Shown: positions 3,041 to 23,310 of the stretch, in pieces
Layout of the letters: every line of letters starts with the position of its first letter
Numbering within the stretch: position 1 is the first letter of the stretch
From: Candidatus Bipolaricaulota bacterium
GTDB lineage: Bacteria > Bipolaricaulota > Bipolaricaulia > UBA7950 > UBA9294
Length of the DNA stretch: 37,915 nt
NCBI GenBank assembly: GCA_021159055.1
Contig: JAGGSO010000121.1
Span: forward strand, 1-37,915
Direction of reading: 5' to 3'
Notes under the pieces: generated by a model
The model's database searches: none
The model's input: the letters and a program-made list of their open reading frames with translations, nothing else
What the model was told of the DNA's origin: nothing
Position numbers and translations under genes: made by a program

Positions 3041-4131
3041 GCTCTATGCAGAATGGAGCTTTCCGAATCGGGATCGAATAGATGGATCTTCTCCACGGTC
3101 AGTTTCAAGCCCATGACCGTTCCGACCTCTCCGTTGAAAGGGGCTGGCACCAGTGCCCGGAACTCCTCCTCCCCCAACCGGAAGCTCACCAGGTCCTCCC
3201 GCCCCAACGGTTCGACCACATAGATCTCTGCGTCAAAATTCCCTTCACCAGCCGGGACGATATGCACGTCTTCGGGGCGGATGCCCATGATCACTTGGGA
3301 GGAGACGTTGCTCGGTTCGACCTGAGCGCTCATCTCTTCCGGCAGCCGGATCTTCAATTCCCGCCTCACGAGGTAGAGCCCATCTTCTTCCTGTTTGAGG
3401 GTTGCTTTGAGGAAGTTCATCGGAGGCGAGCCGATGAACCCGGCTACGAACAGAGTCTCCGGATACTCGTATAATTGGTTAGGAGTGCCGTAGGTCTGCA
3501 GTACGCCGTGGTTCATCACCGCGATCCTGTTGGCCATGGTCATTGCTTCTACCTGATCATGAGTTACGTAGATGGAGGTAACACTTAGATCTTCCTGTAA
3601 CCGTTTGATCTCTCCACGCATGCGCAGCCGTAGCTTAGCGTCCAGGTTTGATAGCGGTTCATCGAACAGTAGGATGGCCGGTTCCTTGACCAAAGCCCTC
3701 GCGACAGCCACCCGTTGTTGCTGCCCACCGGAGAGCTGGGCTGGCTTGCGGTCCAGGAGTTCTCCGATCCCCATCATGTCGGCTACTCTCTGAACTCTCT
3801 GTTTCTTTTCCTTTCCGCGTATCTTCTTCAGGGTCAATGGGTAAGCAATATTATCGAAGACGGTCATATGGGGATAAAGGGCGTAACTTTGAAACACCAT
3901 ACCGATGTTGCGTTCCTTCGGCAGCAGGTGGTTCACCACCTTGTCTCCGAATCGGATGTAACCCGAGGTTGGCTTATAGATGCCAGCGATCATGAGGAGG
4001 GTGGTGGTCTTGCCGCATCCTGAAGGACCCAGAAAGGCGACGAATTCCTTGTCATCGATCTCCAGGTTGAGGTTATCCACGGCCTTTACCTTGCCGAAGT
4101 GCTTACATAGATTCTCAATGGTTATTTGCAT
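3034..4131 (-). CDS. sugar ABC transporter ATP-binding protein (MalK/UgpC type)
   Basis: A 365-residue ATPase that energises the two permeases encoded just upstream. Visible motifs are Walker A GPSGCGKTT (35-43), Q-loop near 81, signature LSGGQQQR (133-140), Walker B ILLFDEP (153-159) and the switch His in YVTHDQ. About 125 residues follow as the MalK-type OB regulatory extension, including GIRPEDVHIV. Length and architecture match the MalK/UgpC/MsmX group that serves class I carbohydrate importers. The ribosome-binding site AAGGAG lies just before the ATG. It is the last gene of the operon, 27 bp after the MalG-like permease. The substrate cannot be told from this subunit. Confidence 0.95.
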   Translation of the reverse strand: MQITIENLCKHFGKVKAVDNLNLEIDDKEFVAFLGPSGCGKTTTLLMIAGIYKPTSGYIRFGDKVVNHLLPKERNIGMVFQSYALYPHMTVFDNIAYPLTLKKIRGKEKKQRVQRVADMMGIGELLDRKPAQLSGGQQQRVAVARALVKEPAILLFDEPLSNLDAKLRLRMRGEIKRLQEDLSVTSIYVTHDQVEAMTMANRIAVMNHGVLQTYGTPNQLYEYPETLFVAGFIGSPPMNFLKATLKQEEDGLYLVRRELKIRLPEEMSAQVEPSNVSSQVIMGIRPEDVHIVPAGEGNFDAEIYVVEPLGREDLVSFRLGEEEFRALVPAPFNGEVGTVMGLKLTVEKIHLFDPDSESSILHRAK

Positions 4132-4158
4132 CCAAGGCTCCTTTTTATCATCAGGGGA

Positions 4159-5052
4159 TTATACGCCTCCTTTTTTCCCGCCTCCGTAGATGCTGAGCAG
4201 CGATTCCTGAGTGAACAGGAAGAAGAGCAGCACCGGTATTAACTGGAAAAGCCCAACGGCCGCCACTGCGTTCCACTCAGTCATCACGGACTCGCTGATG
4301 AAATTTTGCAGGTACAGGGACAGGACGGATGAGTGCCCGGTAGCGCCGATGGTGAAGGTAACGGGAATTATGTATGCATTCCATGCAGTCAGAAATGAAA
4401 ATATCGACAACGCTGCGATTCCCGGCTTTATGTTGGGCATCAGGATCTGCCACCATATCTTGATTCGCGATGCTCCGTCGATCATTGCGGAGCGCTCCAT
4501 GTCCCAAGAGATGTTGTCGAAGAATCCCTTCATCACCCAGATGCCGAACGGAAGCTGGAAGGCAACCATAACCAGAGCCACACCACCGAGAGTGTTGTAA
4601 CCGAACCCTCCGATCAGCGGTATTCCACGCCCTATGAAAGGAATCTTCTGAATCCAGAGGAGTACGAAATAAATGGGAATAAGAAGGGTGACGCTGGGAA
4701 AGGCATGAAGGATCAGGGTAAGGGATAGGAATCCTTTTCGACCGGCAAACTTCATCCGGGAGAGGGGATAAGCGGCCAAGGATGCAACTGCAACGACAAT
4801 GGCTGTCATAACAAGCGACATCACAAGGGTATTAAGAGTGACGGGCCAGATGTTGGAATATCCGCCTCCGAAGGGTGATTCCCACAAGAATCGCCAGTTG
4901 GACAGCGTCCATCCGATCGGCTTTAGCCCCTCCGTTCTGGAGGAGAACGAGGCGATGATCAACCATGCATACCCCAGGAGGAGGAACAGGGTGGGGATAA
5001 GCAGCACGATGTAAGCAAGTCCGGCTTTCCACATTCGTTTTATGCTCACCAT
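4159..5052 (-). CDS. sugar ABC transporter permease (MalG type)
   Basis: A 297-residue inner-membrane permease with about six hydrophobic segments. The cytoplasmic EAA loop is visible near residue 190 (AMIDGASRIKIWWQILMPNIKP), where the ATPase docks. The N-terminal region has the usual MalG order: a first helix, a periplasmic loop containing TLSNWRFL, then the core from about residue 70. It starts 10 bp after the MalF-like gene, with AGAGG about 6 nt before the ATG. It pairs with the upstream permease to form the channel. Assignment to the carbohydrate importer family (CUT1) is firm; the substrate is unknown. Confidence 0.93.
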   Translation of the reverse strand: MVSIKRMWKAGLAYIVLLIPTLFLLLGYAWLIIASFSSRTEGLKPIGWTLSNWRFLWESPFGGGYSNIWPVTLNTLVMSLVMTAIVVAVASLAAYPLSRMKFAGRKGFLSLTLILHAFPSVTLLIPIYFVLLWIQKIPFIGRGIPLIGGFGYNTLGGVALVMVAFQLPFGIWVMKGFFDNISWDMERSAMIDGASRIKIWWQILMPNIKPGIAALSIFSFLTAWNAYIIPVTFTIGATGHSSVLSLYLQNFISESVMTEWNAVAAVGLFQLIPVLLFFLFTQESLLSIYGGGKKGGV

Positions 5053-16797: not shown

Positions 16798-17241
16798 ATG
16801 CAACGGACTTACGTGGCAAAGAACGAAGAACGGGGTAAGACCTGGGAACGCAATTGGTACTTGGTCAATGCTGATGGGAAGACCCTGGGGCGGTTGGCGA
16901 GCGAGATCGCGGTGATCCTGCAGGGGAAGCATAAGCCGATCTACACTCCGCACGTCGATACCGGTGATTACGTGATCGTGATCAACGCGGAGAAGGTCGT
17001 CCTCACCGGGAACAAATGGGATCAGAAGCTCTACCAACGGCACTCGGGTTACATCGGCGGTTTGAAAGAGATCCCTTATCGCAAATTGATCGAGCGTCGT
17101 CCCACCCTGCCGGTGCGTGAGGCGGTGCGGCGGATGCTCCCGAAGACGACCCTCGGTCGGCGGATGCTCCGCAAGTTAAAGGTATACGCCGGGCCGACCC
17201 ATCCCCACACGGCACAACGCCCGATCGAGCTTTCGCTGTAA
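16798..17241 (+). CDS. rplM: 50S ribosomal protein L13
   Basis: A 147-residue protein of the large subunit and an early 23S rRNA assembly protein. Diagnostic stretches are [19 protein letters not shown] (about 20-38), the nucleic-acid-facing [16 protein letters not shown] and the C-terminal [27 protein letters not shown]. The N-terminus carries about six residues more than E. coli L13. AAGGAG lies 6-7 nt before the ATG. In most bacteria rpsI (S9) follows within the same operon. Here a strong terminator follows and the next gene is an unrelated secreted protein, so rplM is a single-gene transcript. Confidence 0.98.
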
Positions 17242-17387: not shown

Positions 17388-18011
17388 ATGGGAACTAAGG
17401 TGCGCAGGATCAGTCTATGGGTGATAGTGGGGGCAATCCTGCTGAGCGCCGTCGTGTCAGTAGCGGGGGAGAAGATCGCGATCTTCGTTCAAGCGGCCGC
17501 TCCGGTCCCGACGGCCGATGTTGAGTTGCTGCAGAACTTCGCGCAACAGCACGGTGCGGTCATAACCGGGGCGCGGGTGTGTTCCACCGGGGAGCTGATG
17601 CACGCCCAGCGGTTGACCAATACCTACATCGGGAATACCCTGTCGGTCGAGGGGATCAGGCGGCTCGCCAACGCGCTGGATGTGGATCATATCATCATCT
17701 TCCGCATCGTCCGCTGGGAGGATCAGCTTTCGTTTCAGCCGGAGAGGTCCCTCCTCATCCTTGGAGCGACCTCGCTCGCTGACAACTCTCTGAAACTCCT
17801 GTTGAGCCCGCTCGGGATCCTCCTTGGCCTGCAGAAGGAATCTACCGTCGGGCTGTTCGCCACCGTGTTCGATCCGAACGGGAACGTACAGTTCACCACT
17901 TCCGTTACCTCCACGGATCAGCCGTTCCTCTCCCTCCTCACCGCCGATCCGCTGGAGGCAGCGAAACAGGCGATCGATACCGCCCTTTATCAGATCGCGG
18001 TGGCCCTATGA
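17388..18011 (+). CDS. secreted protein of unknown function
   Basis: A 207-residue protein. Residues 1-27 form a signal peptide (KVRRISLWVIVGAILLSAVVSVAGE) without lipobox. The mature part, about 180 residues, starts EKIAIFVQAAAPVPTADVELLQNF and looks like a mixed alpha/beta domain. A strand-rich middle (VDHIIIFRIVRW) and the hydrophobic loop LLLSPLGILLGLQ suggest membrane contact or a buried core. I recognise no family. It could be an envelope protein of the type that forms an alpha/beta fold on outer-membrane machines, but that is a guess. A G-rich sequence (GGGGAG) lies very close to the ATG. It is the first of four secreted-protein genes on this strand, with a 123-bp gap before the next. 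Confidence 0.7.
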   Translation: MGTKVRRISLWVIVGAILLSAVVSVAGEKIAIFVQAAAPVPTADVELLQNFAQQHGAVITGARVCSTGELMHAQRLTNTYIGNTLSVEGIRRLANALDVDHIIIFRIVRWEDQLSFQPERSLLILGATSLADNSLKLLLSPLGILLGLQKESTVGLFATVFDPNGNVQFTTSVTSTDQPFLSLLTADPLEAAKQAIDTALYQIAVAL

Positions 18012-18134: not shown

Positions 18135-20363
18135 ATGAAGTTTCTTAAGCTCGGTCCTTATGGCCTTCCCATCCTGCTGGTGATCGCCGCCCTTCTTCTT
18201 CCGGCGGCGGCCTACGCACAGGGGGAAGGGTATTATACGGTCAGCCAGGGGGCGACGAAGGTGCAGATCACGCCGCTCTCCGGCCCCGGGGATGCCGCCA
18301 GCTTCTACAACATGACGAACAGCCAATCAAACACTGGGTTGGAAGAGGCGAACACAGCGGTTATGTTCCTCTACCGGAATACCGCCACCGGTGCGCTCTC
18401 ACTGTTCGTCCTTTTGAGCGGGCCGAACGGAACGGCCGGGACGGTGACGTTCTCTCTGTCCGGGGTCCCGGCCGGTGCCGGGTTTGAGGTGCAGGACGAC
18501 GGTATGGTCGATTTCCGCGAGACGTGGGAGCTCACCCCTCCGACCGGGACTGTCTCCTGGGCGTGGGACGAGGGGAAATCGGACGGGATGGTCCTCGGGC
18601 CGCTCGGGACTGATTTCTCGCTTACCATCTACCCGCAGTTCACCTCCGGAATCACCGCGGTGAAGTTCCTCTCCGGCGATCGGACGGCGCCCCAGAAGAT
18701 CGACCTCAATTTGACCGATCCGATCATCATCGCTGGCAGCCCGAACGAACCGCCGGTAGCAGCGTTTTCCACCGCGCCGGACAAGCCGCACATCAACGAA
18801 CCGGTGACGTTCGACGCCAGCGCGTCCCATGATCCGGATGGGTCGATCGCGAGTTACGAGTGGGATTTCGATGGCGATGGGGTGTTCGATCAGAAGACGA
18901 CCGATCCGGTCGTCACCCACACCTATGCAGTGGCCGGTACGAAGAGCGTTACCCTCCGGGTTACCGATAACGACGGGATGACCGGCCGCACGACCAATTC
19001 GGTTGAGATCTCCGCTCTTGCTGTGAAGGTGAAGAGGACGATCTCCACCGTCGCTGCTCTGCCCGGGACCACGTTCAAGGTAGTGGTCCGCATCGAGTCG
19101 GAGACCGATCTCGCCGGGGTCGGGCTGCAGGAGAGCCTCCCGGTCGGATGGAAGATCAAGCCGATCGAGAACGCCGGCGCCGCGTTCAAGCGGGCGACAG
19201 TACAATGGGTCTTCGTCGACCAGGTGAAGGCGGGAACAACCAAGGTGATCACCTATGAAGTGACTGTGCCGACGAGCGATCAGCTCGTGGCTACCACCCT
19301 CCCTGCCTGCTTCAAGATCACGGGGACGTTCCAGGCGATGACCCCCTCGCTCTCCATCCCGGTTGAGGGCGACAGCGACATCGAGGTCACCGACGCATTG
19401 ACGATCAAGACGGCGATCGCGCACCTCGTCCCGCGGGTCGGGGATGATTTGGACGATACGATCGACCTGCGCCTGTCGCAGAAGATCGATCCGAACCAGC
19501 TTTCTCGCGCGATCGAGATGTGGCGAGACGACGAACCGGTCCCGTGGACGCAGGGAGCGACGATCGACCTGGAGACGATGAAGGAGCTCGCCGCCTACGC
19601 GTACACCTGCACCGAGGTCGATAACCCGCTGCCAGCAGTACCGCAGGCGAACATCACCGCGGTGCGCACGATCGCCACCCCGGTACCGTGCAACAACGTC
19701 CTCCTCAACTACTACGGACCGGACGGAAATCCGGCGGGGAACACGTTCACGGTGAAGGTGGAGATCAGCGCCGACCAAGATCTATACGGGGTCGGGCTCG
19801 CTGAACAGCTCCCGACCGGGTGGAAGGTCACCCCGATCCAGGACGACGGGTTCACCTACAAGGCATCGAAGGTGGAATGGATGTTCCCGGGCAAGCTGCC
19901 GGCGGGGACCACTAAGACCATCATCTATGAAGTCGAGGTTCCGCAGACCCAGGCGATCGAGCAACCAGCGGACAACCCCTGTTTCGTCAGCTCGAACGAC
20001 CTATTCGGCGTGGTGGACTCCGCCCTCCCATGCCAGGACGTGACCGTCACCGGTGATTCCGCGGTCGACGTAACTGACTCCCTGCCGGTGATCGTCGCCA
20101 TCTCGCGCTGGGACGTGGACAACGATACGATCGACATCAACCTGTCGAACAAGATCTCGTTCCAGCAGGTGCAGCGGGCGATTGCGTTCTGGCTCGAGGA
20201 TGAGGTCGTACCGCGCACCGGTGGCCAGACGGTGGACTACGAGACCCTGAAGGCGATCATCGCCTACTGGCTCACTAACACCGATATCTGCGATCCCCTG
20301 CCGGGGGCGGTTCCCGGCACGTGCGAGCCGTGCAAGCTCCCGTGCCAAGGGGCAACGAAGTAG
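18135..20363 (+). CDS. secreted PKD protein with duplicated GW and W-modules
   Basis: A 742-residue extracellular protein. Start ATG 18135 is set by AAAGGAGGT just upstream and by the signal peptide it creates (residues 1-28, ending AYA before QGE); an earlier in-frame start lacks both. Order: unknown beta-rich N-terminal domain (about 30-200); one PKD domain (204-294, with YEWDFDGDG); module GW1 (299-412, core LQESLPVGWKI); W-module 1 (415-492); GW2 (508-642, core LAEQLPTGWKV); W-module 2 (644-716, ending IIAYWLT); and a Cys-rich tail with four Cys. GW modules resemble DUF11/NEW3-like beta-sandwich repeats. The W-module is helical-looking, with conserved AIxxW, IDL, VPxT and IAYWLT positions, and I know no family name for it. 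It has no membrane anchor or sortase signal. It probably acts on the cell surface or outside. The downstream gene shares both modules. Confidence 0.85.
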   Translation: MKFLKLGPYGLPILLVIAALLLPAAAYAQGEGYYTVSQGATKVQITPLSGPGDAASFYNMTNSQSNTGLEEANTAVMFLYRNTATGALSLFVLLSGPNGTAGTVTFSLSGVPAGAGFEVQDDGMVDFRETWELTPPTGTVSWAWDEGKSDGMVLGPLGTDFSLTIYPQFTSGITAVKFLSGDRTAPQKIDLNLTDPIIIAGSPNEPPVAAFSTAPDKPHINEPVTFDASASHDPDGSIASYEWDFDGDGVFDQKTTDPVVTHTYAVAGTKSVTLRVTDNDGMTGRTTNSVEISALAVKVKRTISTVAALPGTTFKVVVRIESETDLAGVGLQESLPVGWKIKPIENAGAAFKRATVQWVFVDQVKAGTTKVITYEVTVPTSDQLVATTLPACFKITGTFQAMTPSLSIPVEGDSDIEVTDALTIKTAIAHLVPRVGDDLDDTIDLRLSQKIDPNQLSRAIEMWRDDEPVPWTQGATIDLETMKELAAYAYTCTEVDNPLPAVPQANITAVRTIATPVPCNNVLLNYYGPDGNPAGNTFTVKVEISADQDLYGVGLAEQLPTGWKVTPIQDDGFTYKASKVEWMFPGKLPAGTTKTIIYEVEVPQTQAIEQPADNPCFVSSNDLFGVVDSALPCQDVTVTGDSAVDVTDSLPVIVAISRWDVDNDTIDINLSNKISFQQVQRAIAFWLEDEVVPRTGGQTVDYETLKAIIAYWLTNTDICDPLPGAVPGTCEPCKLPCQGATK

Positions 20364-20395
20364 ATGGAACGAGCGACTACTAGGAGTTGATCGCG

Positions 20396-22540
20396 ATGAA
20401 GAGAAGAAACACCGCGGCGGGGGGGATCACCCTCGCCGCATTTTTGATCGTCCTTGCGGTAGGGGGCTCCGCCCTGGCGGGAGGATACATCCAGGTACAA
20501 CAGACAGTCGTTCCCGATGAGGTGTACCTCGCCGGGAGCGGGGGGAGCCCGGAGACTGCGACCCTGACCCTTACCCTGACCGGCACCGGGCCGCGGGGGA
20601 GGTTCCCGATCGATTGTATGCTGGTGATCGACGTATCCGCTACCGCTCAGATTGACGTCGCCAAGGAGGCAGCGTTTGGGATCCTGAGCAAATTTAAAGA
20701 GGGAGATCGGGCCGGGGTGGTGGCATTTGCTACTGAAGCCCACCTGATCGTCCCGTTGACGGATGACCTAACGCGAGTGAAACAAGCGATCTCGGATCTC
20801 TCCCGCGGTGGAAAGTCCGCGTTTGGGGACGCCCTCAAACTCGCGCGCCAGCAACTCACCAATGAAGGACGGCCGGATGCAGTACTTGCCGAGGTCCTCC
20901 TCACCGATGGACAGAGCAACAGCGGGAGCGACCCGGCGATCGAGGGGAAGATGGCCAAGGAGCTGGGAATCAAGCTCATCTCGATCGGGATTGGAAACCT
21001 CATCGATAGGAATCTGCTTGAACAGTTCGCCAGCGAGACCGGCGGGCTGTTCCTCCCTCGACCTCGGGATGATGCTCCGGAGAGGATCATGGCTCGTCTG
21101 GCCGTAACCTCTGCCGGAGGCGAGATAACCGTCAAGAAGATCCTCCCCGCCGGCATCAGCTACGCTGGAGGGGATCCGACGCCGACCCAGATCGATCAGG
21201 GAGCGGATGGGATGACCGTACTCACCTGGCGGGTCGGATCCCTCGGCCTCGGCGCTCGGTGGACCGCCACCGTGCTCCTCAAAGGGACTAAGGTCGGTGA
21301 GTGGGCTACGGACGCCGAATCCGTGGTTACGATGGACGACTTTCGTGGAGTACCGACGACGATCAACATCTCCCCCCTCACCCTGCGAGTCATCGCTCCG
21401 AATGCCGCTCCGATCGCCGCGTTCACGTACGGGCCTGAGGAGCCCTCCACGAGCGAAGCGGTCTCGTTCACCGACGAATCAAGCGATTCGGACGGGAAGG
21501 TAGTGGCGTGGAAGTGGGACTTCGGTGACGGGGAAGAAAGCGAGGCGCAGAACCCGGAGCACCGGTTCGCCGCTCCCGGCACCTACACCGTGAGCCTGAT
21601 CGCGATCGACGACCGCGGGGCACGCTCTGCTCCGGCCAAGGTGGAGATCACGATCAAGAACACTCCGCCCACCGCCTTATTCACGTGCTCCCCCAAGGAG
21701 CCGCGGAGTGGAGTGGAGGCTGTGTTCGACGCGAGCGGTTCCAACGACATCGATGGCCACGTCGTCACCTATTCCTGGGACTTTGACGGGGATGGGGCGT
21801 TCGACAAGACTACCTCAAACCCGCAGGTCAGTTACACCTTCCCGAGTTCCGGTGAAGTGCAGGTGACCCTCGCCGTCACCGATGACTCCGGTGGAACGGA
21901 TACCTACACGAAGGCGATTGAGGTCCTTCCGAGCGTCACCGCGGTGCGGACGATCGACACCTGCCTCCCGGACGACGTGACGATCTCCGGCGGGACGGTC
22001 ACCGTGACCGTTACCATCACCGCCAACACGGAAGTGCACGGCCTAACCCTGCACGAGGAGGTTCCGGCTGGTTGGACGTTCACATCGGTCGATAACGGAT
22101 CCGCCACCCTGCGGGAGGCCTCGCACGACTGGTTGTTCATGGAGACCCTGAAGGACGGGGACCAACGGGCGGTCGTCTATACCCTCACCGCCCCCACCAC
22201 CCCGCTTTCCGATCATGGGCAGGAGCAGGTTTCGCTCACCGGGAACGTGGGGAGCTCATCCCCGCGCCTCTCGCAGATGGTCCTCGGGGAGGACAAGGTG
22301 GCACGGGTGGACACCCTCCCCGTTCTGGTTGTCATATCCCGATGGGATACGGAGAAAAACGCGATCGATCTCTGTCTGCCGCCGCAGGTCGGGTTCGACC
22401 AGATCCAGTACGCCGTTTCTCTCTGGATCTCAGGCGACGAGGTCCCGTATACAAACGGCGCGACGATCGACCTGGCGACGATGCAGGATCTGATCGCGTA
22501 TTGGTTGACTGATACCTCGGTTCACGATCCGCTCCCCTAG
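20396..22540 (+). CDS. secreted von Willebrand A protein with PKD, GW and W-modules
   Basis: A 714-residue protein. AGGAG 9 nt before ATG 20396 chooses this start over a TTG at 20387. Signal peptide 1-28 (SALA before GG). The vWA domain is at about 73-235. Its metal site reads DVSAT (79-83) in place of DxSxS, Thr/Ser in GGKSAFGDAL (138-147) and TDG (170-172), so it is close to a normal MIDAS but with substitutions. Two PKD domains follow (337-421 with WKWDFGDGE, 425-511 with WDFDGDG). Then come a GW module (514-633, core LHEEVPAGWTF) and one C-terminal W-module (638-706, ending LIAYWLT), 60-70 residues, clearly related to both copies in the preceding gene. Metal-dependent adhesion to a protein or glycan partner is the usual role of extracellular vWA domains. 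The gene follows its neighbour by 32 bp and is likely co-transcribed. Confidence 0.88.
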   Translation: MKRRNTAAGGITLAAFLIVLAVGGSALAGGYIQVQQTVVPDEVYLAGSGGSPETATLTLTLTGTGPRGRFPIDCMLVIDVSATAQIDVAKEAAFGILSKFKEGDRAGVVAFATEAHLIVPLTDDLTRVKQAISDLSRGGKSAFGDALKLARQQLTNEGRPDAVLAEVLLTDGQSNSGSDPAIEGKMAKELGIKLISIGIGNLIDRNLLEQFASETGGLFLPRPRDDAPERIMARLAVTSAGGEITVKKILPAGISYAGGDPTPTQIDQGADGMTVLTWRVGSLGLGARWTATVLLKGTKVGEWATDAESVVTMDDFRGVPTTINISPLTLRVIAPNAAPIAAFTYGPEEPSTSEAVSFTDESSDSDGKVVAWKWDFGDGEESEAQNPEHRFAAPGTYTVSLIAIDDRGARSAPAKVEITIKNTPPTALFTCSPKEPRSGVEAVFDASGSNDIDGHVVTYSWDFDGDGAFDKTTSNPQVSYTFPSSGEVQVTLAVTDDSGGTDTYTKAIEVLPSVTAVRTIDTCLPDDVTISGGTVTVTVTITANTEVHGLTLHEEVPAGWTFTSVDNGSATLREASHDWLFMETLKDGDQRAVVYTLTAPTTPLSDHGQEQVSLTGNVGSSSPRLSQMVLGEDKVARVDTLPVLVVISRWDTEKNAIDLCLPPQVGFDQIQYAVSLWISGDEVPYTNGATIDLATMQDLIAYWLTDTSVHDPLP

Positions 22541-22552
22541 GGGCGGATCGTG
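22523..22552 (+). repeat. strong hairpin over the stop codon of the vWA gene
   Basis: CACGATCCG (22523-22531) pairs perfectly with CGGATCGTG (22544-22552), with further CCCC/GGGG pairing inside. The stop codon (22538-22540) lies in the loop region. No T-run follows, so it is not a standard terminator. It may stabilise the message or lower expression of the next gene, which starts 21 bp later. Confidence 0.55.
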
Positions 22553-22572
22553 GGCCCGGGTTTGGAGGGGGT

Positions 22573-23256
22573 ATGAGCAAGAAGAAGGAACTGGTCATTC
22601 TGTTAAGCGGAATACTCGTGATGTTGGGCCTTGCTGTGTTCGGGCAGGGGATCGATTTCGACCCAGCGACCTATAACCCAGCGGTGGGAGAGACAGTGAC
22701 GTTCTCCGCCTGTGAGACGTGCACCTCCGGTGCGGTCAGCTACGAGTGGGACTTCGACGGGGATGGAGTATCCGACCTCTCCGGGTCTGATCCCCTTGTC
22801 GACCACGCGTTTGCCGCCGCCGGCTACACCGAGGTGACCCTGCGCGCCGTCGGGGCCGACGGGCGCGTAACGGCGCGGAGGAAGGGCATCCTCGTCGGCT
22901 CCTCCCCGCTGATCGGGGTCCGCCGTGTCGAAGTGAACCCGGACAGGAGTTTGAACGTGACGATCAGCGTCGTCGCCACCGCCGACCTTTCCGGGGTCGG
23001 GATCGAGGAGACGATCCCCATCGGCTGGCAGGTGAACGCCTCCCAGGCCGGAGGGGTGTTTGTCAAGCGCACCGGGCGGAAGCTCGAGGTCCTGTGGCTG
23101 AACCAGCTCTTCGCCGGGGATACCGCGAGCTTCTCCTATACCCTCTATCCCGGGCAAGGGAACGGGGTTCCGGCGTTTACCGGGACGATCAGCGGCTATA
23201 CCAATGGAGCCCGGGTGAAAAATGAGCTTTGCGGGGACCTCACCGTCCCGTATTAG
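22573..23256 (+). CDS. secreted protein with one PKD and one GW module
   Basis: A 227-residue protein with a signal peptide of about 25 residues (KKKELVILLSGILVMLGLAVFGQG). One PKD domain occupies about 25-108 (YEWDFDGDG). One GW module occupies about 114-223, with core GIEETIPIGWQV followed by LEVLWLNQLFAGDTASFSYTLYP, aligning with those in the two preceding genes. It lacks the C-terminal W-module, so it is a minimal family member. TTGGAGGGGGT directly precedes the ATG. It is the last gene of the secreted-protein set and is closed by a terminator. Lack of the W-module suggests that the GW part is the shared structural unit and the W-module an optional binding or assembly tag. Confidence 0.82.
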   Translation: MSKKKELVILLSGILVMLGLAVFGQGIDFDPATYNPAVGETVTFSACETCTSGAVSYEWDFDGDGVSDLSGSDPLVDHAFAAAGYTEVTLRAVGADGRVTARRKGILVGSSPLIGVRRVEVNPDRSLNVTISVVATADLSGVGIEETIPIGWQVNASQAGGVFVKRTGRKLEVLWLNQLFAGDTASFSYTLYPGQGNGVPAFTGTISGYTNGARVKNELCGDLTVPY

Positions 23257-23278
23257 GACCGAGCTTTGTGAACGGCGT

Positions 23279-23310
23279 GCGGGCGGCTCTGGCCGCCCGC
23301 GTTTCTATTT
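23279..23310 (+). terminator. terminator after the secreted-protein genes
   Basis: GCGGGCGGC (23279-23287) pairs perfectly with GCCGCCCGC (23292-23300) across TCTG and is followed by GTTTCTATTT. Its tail overlaps the last codons of the convergent membrane-protein gene. Confidence 0.8.

Follow-up and report, generated by a model that had tools for sequence, protein, structure and literature searches.

A Trp-rich module in a conserved secreted-protein operon of Bipolaricaulota appears to be a loop-dead branch of an EF-hand-bearing domain

Three adjacent open reading frames, P0001, P0002 and P0003, lie on one strand with short gaps between them on contig 121 of a 1.6-Mb Bipolaricaulota genome (95% complete). 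The coordinates in the list below are positions in the window, which is the whole 37,915-nt stretch of DNA that was analysed. The proteins share two kinds of module, termed GW and W, and the features of the locus are as follows.

16798–17241, forward strand: rplM (ribosomal protein L13), an upstream neighbour conserved across the phylum
17388–18011, forward strand: P0004, small and secreted, of no known family; lies between rplM and P0001, an arrangement kept in the window's family and in one f3 genome
18135–20363, forward strand: P0001, 742 aa, secreted; N-terminal unnamed domain, PKD, GW1, W1, GW2, W2 (from the open reading frame, Pfam and module boundaries)
19017–19388, forward strand: GW1 of P0001, a DUF11-like Ig domain (module boundaries and DUF11 match)
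19392–19634, forward strand: W-module 1 (W1) of P0001 (profile searches)
19464–19499, forward strand: vestigial EF-hand loop of W1, DLRLSQKIDPNQ, with Gln at position 12; register from ungapped hhalign
19647–20072, forward strand: GW2 of P0001 (module boundaries)
20076–20303, forward strand: W-module 2 (W2) of P0001 (profile searches)
20133–20168, forward strand: vestigial EF-hand loop of W2, DINLSNKISFQQ
20396–22540, forward strand: P0002, 714 aa, a secreted vWA protein; vWA, PKD, PKD, GW3, W3
21929–22306, forward strand: GW3 of P0002 (module boundaries)
22310–22537, forward strand: W-module 3 (W3), at the extreme C-terminus of P0002, stopping at the last codon
22367–22402, forward strand: vestigial EF-hand loop of W3, DLCLPPQVGFDQ
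22573–23256, forward strand: P0003, 227 aa, secreted; PKD, GW4, without a W-module
22909–23247, forward strand: GW4 of P0003 (hhalign and HMM), with no W-module after it
23277–23302, forward strand: terminator-like hairpin just after P0003, with 11 pairs and a T-containing tail (consensus match only)

The N-termini of P0001, P0002 and P0003 resemble signal peptides when judged by eye, and on this basis the operon proteins would probably be located at the cell surface. Pfam searches placed PKD domains in all three proteins (E 1.5e-18, 1.1e-36 and 6.6e-9, respectively) and a vWA domain in P0002. The hairpin that follows P0003 is at most suggestive of a terminator. An earlier note on this DNA had described three adjacent genes that share PKD domains and a module with the core ExxPxGW, and a W-module found twice in the first protein and once at the C-terminus of the vWA protein. 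Both descriptions are borne out, and the boundaries of the W copies fall near the residue ranges proposed there.

The ExxPxGW module (GW) occupies residues 295–418 and 505–646 of P0001, 512–637 of P0002 and 113–225 of P0003. It is not new, and belongs to the named Ig-like family DUF11 (PF01345). The GW module of P0001 matches this family with E 5.5e-8 and 33.6 bits, above the curated cut-off of 24.6, and that of P0002 (E 4.8e-5, 24.1 bits) lies just under the same cut-off. The copy in P0003 is linked to GW by hhalign (96.3%, E 1.5e-9) and by an HMM search (E 1.3e-14). The predicted GW structure is an Ig-like sandwich, and the best Foldseek matches of a model comprising GW and W are Ig-like sandwiches that fit the GW half.

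The W-module is a Trp-rich segment of ~76 residues, present in three copies within P0001 and P0002. In searches of whole genomes, W copies find one another with E-values of 1e-9 to 1e-22, far above chance. Searches with single copies and with profiles yielded no match in Pfam, NCBIfam or PDB sequences, and a PDB sequence search with a profile of the GW-W dyad likewise gave none. At the level of sequence comparison, these results show that W constitutes a previously unmodelled domain family, in keeping with the initial impression that it has no name. Among the papers searched, none connects a domain of this kind with Bipolaricaulota or Fraserbacteria.

The earlier note had also suggested that W is used across the genome, but the window's genome holds only five copies in three proteins, namely P0001, P0002 and a paralogue of P0001 on contig 33. 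This paralogue (L001:3-2015) carries two GW-W dyads followed by Ig-like repeats, lies near V-type ATPase genes and runs off its contig. The family is nevertheless wider than a pair of paralogues: a W profile built from ten copies of the window's genus matches 96 of 100 Bipolaricaulota genomes, including all 38 of the most complete, and a typical genome of the phylum has two to three copies. In a named genome collection, relatives come from records titled mainly Candidatus Bipolaricaulota, Acetothermia and Fraserbacteria.

The window's family has the gene order rplM - (P0004) - P0001 - (P0002) - P0003, and rplM also adjoins P0001 in families f3, f5, f8 and f9, with synteny of the operon spanning f1, f3, f5, f8 and f9. 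The f6 locus examined has the same three genes, with rplM absent from the stretch, and in f3 loci P0002 is missing and P0003 directly follows P0001. P0001 has the architecture GW-W-GW-W in every operon examined, the P0003 homologue ends in a lone GW without W in each operon examined that has one, and W always directly follows a DUF11-type Ig domain in the core operon. Comparison with the nearest relative gives dN/dS values of 0.064 for P0001, 0.032 for W2, 0.19 for P0002 and 0.051 for rplM; P0001 and W2 are under strong purifying selection. P0003 of this nearest relative is broken into two frames (L017:8434-9180), perhaps by a frameshift or an assembly error, and the record of the relative is titled Neomarinimicrobiota, yet it groups in the window's genus.

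A Fraserbacteria genome (G060) contains five classical W-modules together with many shorter relatives of ~60 residues, hereafter EF-type, and gives 65 matches with the EF-type profile A2. In most of the EF-type copies read in this genome there is a textbook EF-hand loop, such as the SIEQALDTNQNGVIDDSEIKIAITYWVDEFEIPGTGGQIIDDAKVKELIEMWALQLPIS that closes a secreted protein, and Pfam EF-hand models pick up single members (best E 1.4e-4). The W profile A1 recovers EF-type copies, and A2 in turn recovers W copies in 94 of 100 genomes of the phylum. An hhalign comparison of W with the EF-type set, which is not fully independent because that set was gathered with the W profile, gives an ungapped alignment of 55 columns (98.8%, E 7e-17); a wider set of 47 W sequences gives 98.6% and E 5.6e-16, and the ungapped alignments extend over 53–55 columns overall. 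A selection artefact is unlikely because the reverse search succeeds, because members match EF-hand Pfams, and because A2 matches 0 of 289 bacterial genomes outside Bipolaricaulota at E <= 1e-4. Within the phylum, the same profile matches 92 of 100 genomes in this comparison. The genome searches show what appears to be an EF-hand-bearing, dockerin-sized domain, including the W branch, that belongs mainly to Bipolaricaulota.

Some copies in the Fraserbacteria genome are intermediate, starting with 'AIAQLIPNDPSGG...' as W1 of P0001 does, and intermediate sequences with an 'AIAxLxPNDP' insert connect the W and EF-type forms. Such intermediates bear on whether W might instead be an independent two-helix, Trp-rich repeat whose likeness to EF-hands arose by convergence. 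This explanation would accord with the lack of any EF-hand Pfam match to W alone and with an empty Foldseek search, but we judge it very unlikely in view of the ungapped alignment of 53–55 columns at E 1e-16 to 1e-17, the reciprocal whole-genome matches and the connecting intermediates. Homology of W to the loop-bearing relatives is instead supported by the reciprocal searches, by hhalign and by the EF-hand Pfam matches of those relatives.

Position 12 of the loop is Gln in 52 of 53 W copies and Glu in all 24 EF-type copies compared. Other positions of the W loop retain EF-hand character, with I, L or V at position 8 in 52/53 and Asp at position 1 in 41/53. EF-type loops carry N or D at position 3 (21/24) and at position 5 (22/24), and these ligands are mostly lost in W, the second half of which is without a loop. 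An EF-hand loop is expected to combine Asp1, a hydrophobic residue at position 8 and Glu or Asp at position 12, and W departs from this pattern at position 12. The earlier statement that W has no EF-hand calcium loop was therefore half right: no intact loop is present, but a 12-residue vestige with its key ligands replaced can be recognized. Together, the comparisons show W as a probable loop-dead branch of an EF-hand-bearing domain, in which the 12-residue loop and two helices ending in Trp have been kept. A Glu-to-Gln change at position 12 is the standard alteration for disrupting Ca binding in calmodulin (PMC9803350), and W is predicted not to bind calcium because of its Gln12. Ancestral calcium binding that was lost later in W is plausible. 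EF-loop copies are also present in families f5, f6, f8 and f9.

EF-type copies mostly reside at the extreme C-terminus of signal-peptide-like proteins, and most of the G060 proteins inspected stop no more than 8 residues past the module. Their passengers in this genome include RTX repeats, DUF11, PKD/Ig proteins and many proteins of no known family. In eight G060 proteins (L082, L084, L085, L086, L088, L091, L092, L094), the module is followed by a conserved C-terminal tail of ~100 residues that resembles a Por/T9SS sorting domain (PF18962, E 7e-4 in one of them). Two lipoprotein-like proteins of ~100 residues with a lipobox-like Cys (L139:1290-1592 and 4025-4330) contain little besides one EF-type module. 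A few EF-type modules lie near the N-terminus, directly after the signal peptide (L134, L138, L142, L147), so a description as a C-terminal tag is not universal.

The dockerin-like position and duplication of W, pointed out in the earlier note, are supported by these data. W could accordingly be imagined as a member of the dockerin family that pairs with cohesins, as its size, two-helix layout, C-terminal position and EF-loop relatives might suggest, and both families exist elsewhere in the phylum (20 of 100 genomes over the cut-off for cohesin and 56 of 100 for dockerin). Yet comparison with the Pfam dockerin profile, PF00404 (Dockerin_1), gave no match to any W copy, and ten PF00404 dockerins of the same phylum, used as a control, reached only 3% by hhalign against both the W and the EF-type sets. 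The dockerin matches recovered in the phylum carry two intact loops, whereas W has one vestigial loop. There is no cohesin (PF00963) or dockerin (PF00404) match in the window's genome, at 95% completeness, making a cohesin partner unlikely for W here, and 74 of the 100 phylum genomes, most of them W carriers, have no cohesin match. We therefore rejected W as a Pfam dockerin and consider pairing with cohesins as a dockerin family member to be extremely improbable. True cohesins and dockerins occur in families f5 to f9 (G049–G057, G059–G067; L100–L107), where they may form a cellulosome-like system.

AlphaFold2 predictions of W alone (pLDDT 86.1, pTM 0.72) place helices at residues 12–17, 36–48 and 62–74, and a prediction of GW plus W reaches pLDDT 96.6 and pTM 0.87. 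Because confidence in W rises when GW is present, the models suggest that the two pack as one rigid dyad. A Foldseek search with the W model found no match in PDB or BFVD (viral), so the EF-like fold is proposed from sequence. Very small domains often score weakly in Foldseek.

The main rival to a docking role sees W as no more than a cap that helps the DUF11 domain fold, completing the Ig sandwich and making it rigid, with no part in contacts between molecules. W is tied in cis directly after GW throughout the core operon, and fusion to GW greatly raises the confidence of its prediction; we regard such a purely structural cap as possible, if on the whole rather unlikely. P0003 carries a GW module without W, and the W-module of P0002 sits exactly at the C-terminus, both of which speak against a cap. 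Moreover, EF-type relatives are also seen with no GW, either behind linkers or as the ~100-residue lipoprotein-like proteins of L139, implying that the module can stand alone.

We lean, by somewhat better than even chances, towards a joint reading in which W is a loop-dead EF-type branch, GW-W dyads are calcium-independent docking or capping units, and EF-loop versions are separable tags. GW and W would fold as one rigid dyad, as an X-module and dockerin do in type-II cellulosomal scaffoldins, and the dyads of the rplM-linked operon would, without need of calcium, dock or cap long PKD/Ig/vWA proteins and keep them assembled on the cell surface. Many secreted proteins of Fraserbacteria-type families may be attached by the EF-loop versions, acting as separable tags. 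W itself may have a role in attachment or pairing.

Rare relatives of W were found on haloarchaeal plasmids (Halobaculum, Halobellus), with W profile E-values of ~1e-8 as computed for a nominal 10,000-sequence search. On a Halobaculum halobium plasmid (L118:2682-4326), three proteins are encoded in succession: a PKD protein; P0005, a CARDB protein whose C-terminus is W-like and which has no obvious signal peptide; and P0006, a lone DUF11/GW protein, whose gene overlaps that of P0005 and which ends in a PGF-CTERM-like anchor. This layout is close to that of the window's operon, across the domain boundary.

Another alternative is a donor-acceptor model, in which the unpaired GW module of P0003, one in each operon, engages a W-module on a second molecule, of P0001 or P0002, and the operon self-assembles into a surface lattice. 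The lone GW that ends P0003 homologues and the succession of P0005 and P0006 are both consistent with it. However, every W-module in P0001 and P0002 already has its own GW in cis, and the haloarchaeal W carrier has no evident signal peptide; we hold this model to be improbable, and more speculative than the cap. Similarly improbable, in our estimation, is a calcium-independent docking surface layer of the phylum as a whole, in which the W-GW core operon beside rplM supplies the layer, the lone GW of P0003 acts as acceptor, and dozens of secreted proteins dock onto it through the EF-loop tags of Fraserbacteria.

The W-module and its operon matter in two respects. First, W would be a natural case of an EF-hand docking-type domain with Glu12 replaced by Gln phylum-wide, some genomes holding loop-bearing relatives as well. 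Second, proteins built of Ig-like and helical W modules, present in nearly all genomes sampled from this poorly known phylum, may give an initial clue to how the cell surface is covered or held together, and the syntenic secreted PKD/Ig/W operon, with its strong purifying selection, is a concrete candidate for Bipolaricaulota surface architecture. We take the member described in the first closed-genome study to be Candidatus Bipolaricaulis. That study left undecided whether the envelope is monoderm or diderm and found no flagella, pili, fimbriae or adhesins (PMC6092417), and for this reason the operon is a testable surface candidate for this organism.

Several known systems provide points of comparison. 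The GW module belongs to DUF11, and the haloarchaeal P0006 matches both DUF11 and NEW3, but DUF11 models leave out the W-module that is part of the architecture of the operon proteins. Relatives of W in the phylum carry the EF-hand pattern D-x-N-x-N-G-x-I-D-D-x-E of the superfamily (Pfam EF-hand_5/6/7), of which W keeps Asp1 and the hydrophobic position 8 but neither the position 3/5 ligands nor Glu12, and W itself has no Pfam EF-hand match. Haloarchaeal CARDB and malectin proteins share a W-like segment with the operon, and the Halobaculum operon has the order PKD, Ig(CARDB)-W, lone GW; these segments differ in being archaeal, rare in the plasmid collection and degenerate in the loop in another way. 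Dockerin_1 (PF00404) is like W in size, position, presumed attachment role and presence in the same phylum, but has two intact loops with a conserved G-D-V-N-G-D-G and no detectable sequence-profile relation to W. In type-II cellulosomal X-module-dockerin pairs, a hydrophobic interface with an Ig-like module lends stability to the docking module (PMC5141474). GW-W differs from these pairs in lacking a dockerin profile match, in its single vestigial EF loop with Gln12, in its DUF11-type Ig domain and in a genome without cohesin, but both place an Ig-like sandwich directly before a helical module of ~65–75 residues with loop-helix repeats, form one rigid unit (as predicted for GW-W) and lie C-terminally in a secreted, non-catalytic protein (PMC5141474).
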